From a virus, in the IMG/VR virus record IMGVR_UViG_3300025671_000294, positions 1-31,677 of that record: DNA of 31,677 bases. One strand, given 5' to 3'. This document shows positions 19,682 through 22,520 of the stretch, one piece after another. The notes under the pieces were generated by a model. That model searched no databases. It was not told the origin of the DNA and saw only the letters and a program-made list of their open reading frames with translations. How positions within the stretch are numbered: the first letter of the stretch is position 1; every line of letters begins with the position of its first letter. The position numbers and the translations under genes are program-made.

Positions 19682-20776
19682 ATGAAAGAGATCGACGTAA
19701 GGAAAGCGATAGGGCTAGACCCTGATTTAACCACGGCTCAGAAGTACACTCTCATCATGATGTGTCTTAAGCTCGACTGGGAGACGTGGACAGGAAGAGT
19801 CAGCGCCCTGGGCATCAGCAAGATAAGCGCCCAAAGCGACCGACAGGTCAAGAGACACCTGAGCAAGCTCAAGGCTTCAGGGTGGATCATGAGGATAAGT
19901 GACAGGAGGACTGACAAACCTCAGCTCAACCACAGGTCAGACACGGCGCTCAACACCCTCAAGGCTCAAGCCATCCTCTCCACCTATAGTGTCAATTGTG
20001 ACACTGTGGGTCACAGTGACATATTGGGTAACAGTGGCGAAAGTGTCACAGTAATGGACAGTGACATAATGGGTAACAGTGGCGAAAGTGTCACCATGGG
20101 ATACCTAAAGTGTCACAGTAACAGTGGCGAAAGTGTCACCATTGAGGACAGTGACATAAAAGGTAACAGTGGCGAAAGTGTCACCATGGCTGACCCAAAG
20201 TGTCACAGTAACAGTGGCGAAAGTGTCACCATGACAGTGGCGAAAGTGTCACACAATATAAACTATATTCAACCTATAAAAACTATAGAAAACAAAAACA
20301 GCAGCTCTGAGGACGATGAGGCAGGGCTAGACCCAGCGCGCGAGCGCGAGGAGGAAGACCGGGCTGAGAATTGGGATGACATCATGAGCCGTCATGAGCC
20401 TCCTGAGCCGGTGGAGTTCCAAGACGGTAAATTGTTTTATTTATCTCATATAAAAGACGAGACTGAATACAGAAGACAAGTTCAGGCATCTATTGACCAC
20501 AATAACGCCTATGACATCAGGCGGGCTCTCTTTGCTGCTAATGGTGAGCTGTACACCTTGATGATCTCAGAGCGAATCTCACCAAGGTCAGCTATTGATT
20601 GGGTGACAATCCAAGCTTCAGGGGAGCTCCCTGCTGTCAAGACTCAACCCGTCCCACCTCCAAAGCCGACCACAATTGTGGTGACTCCTGAGCGTCAAGA
20701 GGAGATACTCAAGGCTGATCTAGCCTGGATGAATCCAAGCTATAGAGGTAGAAAAACGAATGGAGATGGATGGTGA
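19682..20776 (+). CDS. replication initiator with embedded iterons (lambda O-like)
   Basis: The 364-residue protein has an N-terminal winged-helix-like domain (about residues 10-85; ISAQSDRQVKRHLSKLKASGWI fits a recognition helix and wing). The central part (about 100-195) is encoded by iterons and repeats NSGESVT. It is followed by an acidic linker (about 205-235) and a C-terminal helical domain ending in YRGRKTNGDGW. A DNA-binding N-terminus, an origin inside the gene and a helicase loader directly downstream match the lambda O/P arrangement. GGAGC precedes the ATG. The protein would bind the iterons and recruit the loader through its C-terminus; this is inference. It overlaps the next gene by seven bases. 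Confidence 0.78.
   Translation: MKEIDVRKAIGLDPDLTTAQKYTLIMMCLKLDWETWTGRVSALGISKISAQSDRQVKRHLSKLKASGWIMRISDRRTDKPQLNHRSDTALNTLKAQAILSTYSVNCDTVGHSDILGNSGESVTVMDSDIMGNSGESVTMGYLKCHSNSGESVTIEDSDIKGNSGESVTMADPKCHSNSGESVTMTVAKVSHNINYIQPIKTIENKNSSSEDDEAGLDPAREREEEDRAENWDDIMSRHEPPEPVEFQDGKLFYLSHIKDETEYRRQVQASIDHNNAYDIRRALFAANGELYTLMISERISPRSAIDWVTIQASGELPAVKTQPVPPPKPTTIVVTPERQEEILKADLAWMNPSYRGRKTNGDGW
19988..20299. other. probable replication origin (ori) within the initiator gene
   Basis: From left to right: an inverted repeat AGTGTCA-ATTG-TGACACT (19988-20005), a second dyad GTCACAGTGAC (20010-20020), six iterons (20028-20252), and an AT-rich stretch at 20253-20299 (38 of 47 bases A or T) that contains three CTATA boxes. 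Iterons followed by an AT-rich unwinding element inside the initiator gene are the known layout of lambdoid origins. The contrast with the roughly 50% GC surroundings is clear. Confidence 0.75.
20028..20252 (+). repeat. six 22-bp iterons, five at exact 45-nt spacing
   Basis: Copies start at 20028, 20073, 20118, 20163, 20208 and 20231. All contain ACAGTGGCGAAAGTGTCAC. The first five are identical over 22 bases (they begin GTA) and the sixth differs in two positions. The 23-base spacers alternate between two types, one with CAGTGACATA and one with AAAGTGTCACA, so a 90-nt higher-order unit is also present. Five copies lie 45 bases apart, about 4.3 helical turns, and all repeats stay in frame. 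Confidence 0.92.
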
Positions 20777-21573
20777 TTGACTACCACAGCATTGACGCTG
20801 AAAACTTCCCAGCTTCTGAATGGGTGAGCTCGTCAGGGTATCTGACCACCACCCCCCTCCCATACTGTGGAGAGTGTCAAGAGGGGATTGTGTATGAGAA
20901 GCCCCCACCACCGAGCGCACCTATTGCCCGCCGTTGTCCTCTGTGTACTCCTCTCAGGGATAGGCTCAAGCGACTAGAAGACGCTCGCCTCCCCTTCCTA
21001 GCTCATCAGCACACCTTGAGCTCTTATGAGTGGGATTCTCCCAAACAACGGGAGAGGGTGGGCGCAATACTCGATTGGATTCATGGCAAGACTGACCCCA
21101 TCGATAAGCCCGCGGTCATGCTGTATGGAAAGCCCGGTAATGGCAAAAGTATGATCCTTCACATCCTAGCCAAACACGCCATCTTCCAAGGCAAGCGAGC
21201 GCTGTTCATATCACATGAAGCTCTCTTTGCTGACATCAGGTCATCATGGAGCTCTAAAACAATCAACCTCCATGAGATGCTTGAGAAGGTTGACTTGCTT
21301 TGTCTTGACGAGCTTGGGGGGCTAGGTGGCGGTGGCAGGTGGTCAGACTGGTACAAGTCACAGACTAGAGAGATGATAGGGGCTATCTATGACCGCTGGG
21401 CTTCTAAGACTCTTAGCGTGATACTCACCTCTAACCTCACGCCTCAGACCATCACCCAAGACTTATGCGATAGGAACAGCGCCGTGAGGTCACGGCTTTC
21501 CGCAATCTTTGGCGCTCCTGTTCAGATGGTGGGGAGAGACAGGCGAGCGGGTAAAGATGACGGGTGGGGTTGA
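20770..21573 (+). CDS. DnaC/DnaI-like AAA+ helicase loader
   Basis: The 267-residue protein has two CxxC pairs (C33/C36 and C56/C59) that probably form a zinc site, then an AAA+ ATPase. Walker A is GKPGNGKS (120-127), Walker B LLCLDE (176-181), sensor 1 is in ILTSN (218-222), and an arginine finger candidate is R240/R242 in AVRSRL. This is the order found in DnaC-type loaders, which deliver the replicative helicase to the origin. GGAG lies before the ATG. The phage carries no helicase in this window, so it presumably loads the host helicase. Coupling to the initiator gene supports a shared role. Confidence 0.85.
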   Translation: MVIDYHSIDAENFPASEWVSSSGYLTTTPLPYCGECQEGIVYEKPPPPSAPIARRCPLCTPLRDRLKRLEDARLPFLAHQHTLSSYEWDSPKQRERVGAILDWIHGKTDPIDKPAVMLYGKPGNGKSMILHILAKHAIFQGKRALFISHEALFADIRSSWSSKTINLHEMLEKVDLLCLDELGGLGGGGRWSDWYKSQTREMIGAIYDRWASKTLSVILTSNLTPQTITQDLCDRNSAVRSRLSAIFGAPVQMVGRDRRAGKDDGWG

Positions 21574-21598
21574 CAGGCTAGGCTAGGGGGAGTACACA
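21565..21598 (+). promoter_or_regulatory. promoter-like element P1 (copy 1 of a duplicated block)
   Basis: A 24-base block (21565-21588) ends in GGCTAGGCTAGGG. It contains TTGACA (21570-21575) with exactly 17 bases to TACACA (21593-21598). The -35 overlaps the stop codon of the helicase loader gene. The -10 matches the consensus poorly, so an activator or a different sigma factor may be needed. Confidence 0.5.
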
Positions 21599-21604
21599 CA
21601 CTCA

Positions 21605-21705
21605 TGTAGTTTTTGCCTTAATCGAGCGCGACACTTGCCGGTCCAATCGCCAGTCGCTCGTTTGGGGGTTGGAAGCCTCTCAGCTTGCTGAGGGGCTTTT
21701 GTTTT
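21605..21705 (+). ncRNA. candidate small RNA 1 (upstream of a paralogous copy)
   Basis: No plausible protein is encoded. Downstream of P1 a hairpin can form between CGAGCG (21623-21628) and CGCTCG (21655-21660). An intrinsic terminator follows at 21673-21705. The predicted transcript of about 100 bases has the same order of elements as the next cassette. Its 5' end is inferred from the promoter-like boxes, not known. It could instead be only the 3' end of the replication operon transcript. Confidence 0.5.
21673..21705 (+). terminator. intrinsic terminator after the helicase loader / small RNA 1
   Basis: AAGCCTCTCAG pairs with CTGAGGGGCTT (11 base pairs, one G-U) around a CTTG loop and is followed by TTGTTTT. 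Only the + strand has a T-run, so it terminates rightward transcription. Confidence 0.82.
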
Positions 21706-21712
21706 AGATGGA

Positions 21713-21746
21713 TGGGGTTGACAGGCTAGGCTAGGGCAAGTAGTGT
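21713..21746 (+). promoter_or_regulatory. promoter-like element P2 (copy 2 of the duplicated block)
   Basis: The 24-base block at 21713-21736 is identical to the one at 21565-21588, 148 bases downstream. TTGACA is at 21718-21723, and again exactly 17 bases separate it from TAGTGT (21741-21746). The spacer is conserved better than the -10, which suggests that the GGCTAGGCTAGG element is bound by a factor. Confidence 0.5.
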
Positions 21747-21752
21747 GCCCTT

Positions 21753-21853
21753 GTCGAGCGCCGTGACCTCTTGGTGCTCGATGGGTTGTGAGCCTCCTCT
21801 CTCTGCGTGATTCCGGCAAGAAACTTCAGAGATTGGGGGCTTTGTCTATTTCT
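21753..21853 (+). ncRNA. candidate small RNA 2
   Basis: Downstream of P2, CGAGCGCC (21755-21762) pairs with GGTGCTCG (21773-21780) around a ten-base loop. A second long hairpin (21791-21841) and a T-rich tail follow. The order promoter block, CGAGC hairpin, GAGCCTC hairpin, T-rich end is the same as in cassette 1 although the primary sequence has diverged, which points to selection on RNA structure. The 5' end is inferred. Confidence 0.48.
21791..21853 (+). terminator. terminator-like long hairpin after small RNA 2
   Basis: AGCCTCC...CTCTG pairs with CAGAG...GGGGGCT (15 positions with one G-U and a two-base mismatch) around a 21-base loop. It is followed by TTGTCTATTTCT. The large loop makes it a weaker terminator than the first. 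It reaches the 3' end of the convergent thyX gene. Confidence 0.5.
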
Positions 21854-22520
21854 AGGAGAGCGCTATCTTAAGCATCCTATCCATTCCCTCGATACTCTTA
21901 ATGCAGTCACGAGCGGCGGCGGCGTAGTACCTCATTTCAGCTTGGGCGTGGTTATCAAGCCTCAGCTGTAGGAAGTGTATGAGCGCGTGAAGAGAGCAGC
22001 TCCAGAAGCACTCACTCATAAGAGACAAGGGCAACACGGCGCGGGCTTGCTCTTTAGCTACTCCCATAGCCAACAGCTCACGATAAACGCAAAAGTTTGC
22101 GGCGCTCGCCCTCTGATAAAGTAACTCGACCGATAACGCGGCGTGGTCTGGCATAGCGCCCCCTGACCCTTGCTTCACCTTCTCTGAGCTCTCGCGCCAC
22201 TCTGAGGGTTGCCACACCTCACCCTCAAACTCTACATATCTCCCGCTGATCTCATTCCAAGCGCACCCAACTTGATGCTTCATCCATTGGCGTAAGATGA
22301 AGATGGGCGCCTTGATGTGAAATTGAAATTGAACGTGTCTAAATGGTGAGGTGTGCTTATGGGTCCACAGGTACTCAATAAGCTTCCAATCCTTCTCACT
22401 CATCTCCTCTGAGCGCTTGCCCATTGACACCCTGGCGCTGTTCACCACTGACAAGGGTGAGCCCATGTGATCGACCAAAGAGACAAAGCCGCCCTGTGTT
22501 GTTATTTTATTCTCAATCAT
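21852..22520 (-). CDS. thyX: flavin-dependent thymidylate synthase ThyX
   Basis: The 222-residue protein matches ThyX in length and in the segments HTSPFRHVQFQFHIKAP and RQWMKHQVGCAWNEISGRY (residues 77-95). ThyX makes dTMP from dUMP with FAD, NADPH and methylenetetrahydrofolate. The usual RHRx7S signature is altered: KHQ (81-83) replaces RHR, and eight rather than seven residues separate it from S92. The NE.S.RY part is intact, so a functional divergent variant is likely. GAGG lies four bases before the ATG. It is transcribed opposite to its neighbours and shares its upstream gap with ssb. Confidence 0.9.
   Translation of the reverse strand: MIENKITTQGGFVSLVDHMGSPLSVVNSARVSMGKRSEEMSEKDWKLIEYLWTHKHTSPFRHVQFQFHIKAPIFILRQWMKHQVGCAWNEISGRYVEFEGEVWQPSEWRESSEKVKQGSGGAMPDHAALSVELLYQRASAANFCVYRELLAMGVAKEQARAVLPLSLMSECFWSCSLHALIHFLQLRLDNHAQAEMRYYAAAARDCIKSIEGMDRMLKIALS

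Follow-up and report, generated by a model that had tools for sequence, protein, structure and literature searches.

The window, a virus record of 31,677 bases analysed over its whole length, has a siphophage-like gene set, including a repressor-like gene, a replication initiation protein, a DnaC-like helicase loader, thyX, SSB, the small and large terminase subunits and a Mu-type portal. Two short related stretches, here called units 1 and 2, lie between the helicase loader and thyX, and the question they raise is what they encode and why they stand at this place. Here it is proposed, with about an even chance of being right, that they are two noncoding morons making small RNAs of ~100 nt in a cargo hotspot between the loader and thyX. 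The features of this region are as follows.

20770..21573, + strand: DnaC-like helicase loader gene (PHROG 50, E=2.1e-22)
21478..21505, + strand: candidate target of unit 2 within the loader coding sequence, from a complementarity search
21559-21573, + strand: last codons and stop of the loader, forming the left half of the first 24-nt block
21565..21588, + strand: 24-nt block, copy 1, exact; its -35 TTGACA (21570-21575) overlaps the loader stop codon
21593..21598, + strand: candidate -10 of unit 1, TACACA, 17 nt after TTGACA (from sequence and the TTGACA-N17-TA signature of the group)
21616..21667, + strand: 5' hairpin of unit 1, with outer stem CCUUAA/UUGGGG, core stem CGAGCG/CGCUCG and a variable loop (from folding and comparison with L003)
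21671..21705, + strand: predicted intrinsic terminator of unit 1 with U tail (hairpin 21671-21698; z -4.5)
21707..21721, + strand: noncoding relic of a loader 3' end (GATGGATGGGGTTGA), identical to the loader end of L003
21713..21736, + strand: 24-nt block, copy 2, exact; -35 TTGACA at 21718-21723
21741..21746, + strand: candidate -10 of unit 2, TAGTGT, 17 nt after TTGACA (from sequence and the group signature)
21751..21778, + strand: 28 nt of unit 2 with complementarity to loader mRNA 21478-21505 at 25/28 positions, counting G-U pairs
21753..21782, + strand: 5' hairpin of unit 2, GUCGAGCGCCG/UGGUGCUCGAU (z -4.8; 0/200 shuffles fold as well)
21790..21851, + strand: terminator-like hairpin of unit 2 with U-rich tail (hairpin 21790-21842; z -2.2), abutting the thyX stop
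21852..22520, - strand: thyX (Pfam Thy1, E=4.7e-47), which converges on the loader and bounds the hotspot on the right

The units share a 24-nt sequence, TGGGGTTGACAGGCTAGGCTAGGG, repeated exactly at 21565 and 21713, and the initial annotation was right in describing two cassettes 148 bases apart that share this block, its TTGACA and a 17-nt spacer. No further copy of the 19-nt core of the block was found in the window at up to three mismatches, with none expected by chance. The spacer-containing block is kept in all three alleles of the unit, and its noncoding half, CAGGCTAGGCTAGGG, is identical in the three. The loader tail, GATGAYGGRTGGGG, is common to the relatives, and the gene ends here with GAT GAC GGG TGG GGT TGA; the first cassette, annotated as noncoding, is so in its unit, which has no ORF, but its block is half coding, since the loader's final codons and stop lie in it. 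No sizeable sense ORF was found in either unit. The longest frame over them, on the minus strand at 21583-21819 (78 aa, TTG start), was discarded because it is not kept and the indels of L003 (fetched loci carry an L number) fall inside it.

From these elements, transcription would start at ~21605 in unit 1 and at ~21753 in unit 2. Both -10 hexamers are poor, each with 3/6 matches. Among the fetched loci, 19 distinct contexts of TTGACA-N17-TA were counted. Most lie just 5' of an RBS and an ORF, the genes behind them including repressor, replication and cargo genes, and four belong to ORF-less units, namely unit 1, unit 2 and those of L003 and L097. The commonest spacer after TTGACA is 17 nt (15 of 162 contexts, with 9 of those 15 at a gene start), followed by 13 nt (12 contexts) and 19 nt (11 contexts). 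Judged from these contexts, TTGACA-N17-TA marks promoters at gene starts in this group of phages, and it supports the predicted promoter function of the units without proving it, the -10s being weak.

Each putative promoter is followed by a 5' hairpin and a terminator hairpin. Compared with dinucleotide shuffles, the whole units fold with z = -2.3 (unit 1) and z = -3.9 (unit 2), and the 5' hairpin of unit 1, taken alone, does not fold significantly (z -0.7 to -1.4). The order of a CGAGC hairpin and then a terminator hairpin with a T-rich tail, as first annotated, was recovered to the extent that both hairpins fold in both units and unit 1 ends in a U tail; the terminator of unit 1, however, begins with AAGCCTC and not GAGCCTC, and that of unit 2 has a long loop and an interrupted T tail. 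Between unit 1 and L003, the loop differs by 6 substitutions and 8 gap columns out of 27, the core stem is unchanged (0/12) and the terminator, where conservation is strongest, differs at 1/33 positions. The indels in this loop argue against a conserved reading frame. In the true helix register 84.6% of cells are paired, far above the 50% that slid registers reach at most, and a covariance model built from unit 1 and L003 finds unit 2 only weakly, at 10 bits and with the filters off. The further claim that the pairing is kept gained no support from compensatory change: covariation in the helices is not above that of shuffles, with a single two-sided change and 331/500 shuffles scoring as high, in a comparison that has little power with three alleles.

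The units have no match among the Rfam 15 covariance models, either at the gathering threshold or at E<=5, and a tRNA/tmRNA search found none; they had no match in the plasmid collection, the phage collection gave no useful match and no related record when searched by DNA, loader protein or TerL protein, and the GTDB genomes gave none when searched by block or by loader. The statement that no named family matches is upheld by the Rfam search. A search with a degenerate block pattern returned only the known contigs. Five extra matches to the hairpin pattern in viral contigs lie inside long open frames, show no other kinship and were attributed to chance, and a covariance model match in L015 (E 0.03) was not counted, as it is at a contig end and has several broken pairs.

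The unit family was found in four contigs only, these being the window, L001, L002 and L003, three of which are identical over the units. Both units are unchanged in L001/L005 and L002/L006, and one diverged unit is present in L003/L017. The other loader relatives (71-83% identity, with further ones at 55-57% and more) are without units, and their loader stop is followed directly by the opposite-strand thyX or by various ORFs. The last ~205 nt of the loader are 100% identical between the window and L003, amid an identity of 50-75% over most of the other loader sequence, which indicates that this segment was exchanged by recombination. At the far end of L003 (positions 1-190), the contig ends in a short reading frame that resembles a fragment of a Bacteroidota RpoD; this end may well be a chimeric join, which makes it an uncertain clue to the host.

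The two units had been taken for diverged duplicates, and related they are; yet a 36-nt block of unit 2 matches L003 at 35/36 positions and unit 1 at 32/36, and unit 2 carries the relic of a loader end, which together point to a second allele that was added and not to a simple duplication of unit 1. Unit 2 thus probably came by addition from another allele, as read from these sequences. Comparable scars are found in other loci. L097 has a unit of 143 nt that bears the promoter signature and a terminator, without an ORF of its own being apparent, and behind it 20 nt repeat the loader end; this unit, in L097/L098 (~3321, - strand), stands on the loader stop codon and has TTGACA-N17-TAAACG and a terminator with z -5.9, and L099 shows the empty state as opposed to the insert of L097. 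L104 has a 37-nt exact repeat of the last loader codons behind an ORF-bearing insert, with 848 nt between the copies.

In 14 of 80 thyX loci, the loader and thyX overlap by a few bases with nothing between them, and the remaining thyX loci with a recognisable loader have inserts in the gap. The gap is a variable cargo hotspot, empty or holding ORFs in the relatives, and the position of the units is better explained by this hotspot than by a replication function. For the replication-control RNAs suggested initially by the placement behind the loader, what is left is a lead from the complementarity of unit 2. The units are extra DNA absent from relatives, as morons are, shown by the 14 empty loci; as to the promoter and terminator of its own that a moron carries, the terminators fold well and the promoters fit the group signature with weak -10s. 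Three loci (L090, L083 and L094) hold in this slot an ORF together with TTGACA-N17-TA and a leader hairpin, GGTGAGC...GCTCRCC, followed by a unit 1-like terminator in L090 (covariance model, 24.4 bits, E=5.5e-4) and L083 (14.8 bits, E=0.25).

Other contents of the gap are of several kinds. A Mom-family DNA-modification gene (Pfam PF25680, E=5.9e-25) is found directly behind the loader in L076 and similar loci. The gap of L062 holds a SAVED protein (E=2.8e-37) and a CD-NTase fragment (PADLOC, E=4.6e-20), and SAVED-like sequence is fused in frame to differing phage ORF fragments in the gaps of L062, L077 and L089; these fusions may be genuine CBASS cargo, or else chimeras that arose in assembly. 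L078, L080, L067 and others have at the loader 3' end an ORF with a YV-KSDDLGGLYYIG motif, which recalls GIY-YIG nucleases, and a Pfam search of that ORF gave no match.

The predicted pairing of unit 2 with the loader mRNA has a complementarity score of 46, which was reached by 0/300 and then 2/4000 dinucleotide shuffles and by 0/72 other 804-nt segments of the + strand; over the whole + strand, the score of unit 2 was reached by 2/60 shuffles. Because several target tests were run, this complementarity is a lead only. Compared with self-folding, the hybrid would gain only ~1.6 kcal/mol net in the window, and 6.2 in L001; the target site is nearly palindromic, site and unit 2 RNA each fold well alone, and the site is deep inside the coding region. 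Within the complementary loader stretch, the window has four clustered differences from L001 at 21498-21502 and agrees there with L003. The loops of unit 1 and L003 gave no convincing target in the window, none being comparable to that of unit 2, and candidate targets close to the starts of the window's genes did no better than shuffles.

The main rival, which is possible but rather doubtful, is that the units are what is left of protein-coding morons after loss of the ORF: promoter, leader hairpin and terminator persist, the terminators having been kept only for keeping apart the loader and thyX transcripts, which converge, and any RNA is incidental. In favour are the promoter layout, leader hairpin and ORF of L090, L083 and L094 in the same slot, the unit 1-like terminator that recurs in L090 and L083, and the terminator being the most conserved part. 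Against it stand the core stem of the 5' hairpin, which did not change between unit 1 and L003 although the loop did, the 24-nt block kept with its spacer in three alleles, and the leader hairpins of L083, L090 and L094, whose sequences have little in common with those of units 1 and 2.

It is improbable that the region is only a 3' UTR of the loader operon, with tandem terminators, chance promoter-like sequence and a first TTGACA that is a by-product of the stop codon. This would suit a convergent gene pair, a strong terminator in unit 1, a -35 of unit 1 that overlaps the stop and weak -10s, but the identity of the noncoding half of the block in three alleles speaks against it, as do L097, where a short unit ending in a terminator has TTGACA-N17-TA at this very position, and the 14 loci that leave no space at all for a terminator. 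That the units are RNA anti-CRISPRs, or a counter-defence RNA of another kind, is very improbable. It would fit a hotspot with Mom-like and CBASS-like genes, the relatives carry such cargo, and the Racr RNAs of viral genomes are likewise solitary noncoding units driven by a promoter (PMC10651486); against it, no Rfam match was obtained up to E=5 and no typical 3' repeat handle was seen.

Under the preferred reading of two noncoding morons, each unit would be an independent short transcription unit, with promoter, 5' stem-loop and intrinsic terminator, giving an RNA of ~100 nt, and with a -35 that makes use of the loader stop codon in unit 1 and of the relic of one in unit 2. The RNAs would most likely act as small regulatory RNAs through base pairing; in the one well-aligned pair of alleles, unit 1 and that of L003, the loop has changed but stem and terminator persist, as if the loop set the target, and for unit 2 this target may be the loader mRNA itself. 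The units were probably added singly by recombination on the loader 3' end, leaving a loader-tail scar. A bolder extension, and a long shot, is that phages of this group stack arrays of RNA units behind the loader, each with a scar and a fresh loop, and that unit 2 is an antisense brake that tunes replication. Noncoding cargo of hotspots is easily overlooked, as surveys count ORFs. If real, small RNA genes would travel and stack like morons, with scars recording the manner of their addition, and the locus would provide a testable case of RNA control over a phage helicase loader.

The likeness of the units to known phage RNAs is at most one of analogy, and no named RNA family is claimed for them. 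OOP of lambda is a short terminator-ended phage RNA beside replication genes and is antisense. It is, however, a cis-antisense RNA from the opposite strand, whereas the units run on the strand of the loader and the complementarity of unit 2 is imperfect and remote. OOP and CII are treated in PMC5869508. The Racr RNA anti-CRISPRs are likewise solitary noncoding units with their own promoter in viral genomes (PMC10651486), but no CRISPR-repeat similarity was found in the units by the Rfam search. The anti-sRNAs EcOnc, AgvB and AsxR of lambdoid prophages are short noncoding RNAs at a phage moron site (PMC4104026) and, by analogy with the units, are mutually related with one conserved and one variable part; they have 51-60 nt, a conserved 3' and a variable 5' part, and are found as convergent pairs downstream of PR' (PMC4104026), unlike the units, which are in tandem on the same strand behind a helicase loader. 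P2-like phages have cargo hotspots beside a replication gene (PMC9122126), and the likeness lies in a slot of variable cargo whose position next to such a gene is fixed. Those hotspots are cos-adjacent and have been described through protein systems (PMC9122126), whereas the slot described here is bounded by the loader and thyX, and has loader-tail scars and noncoding units.
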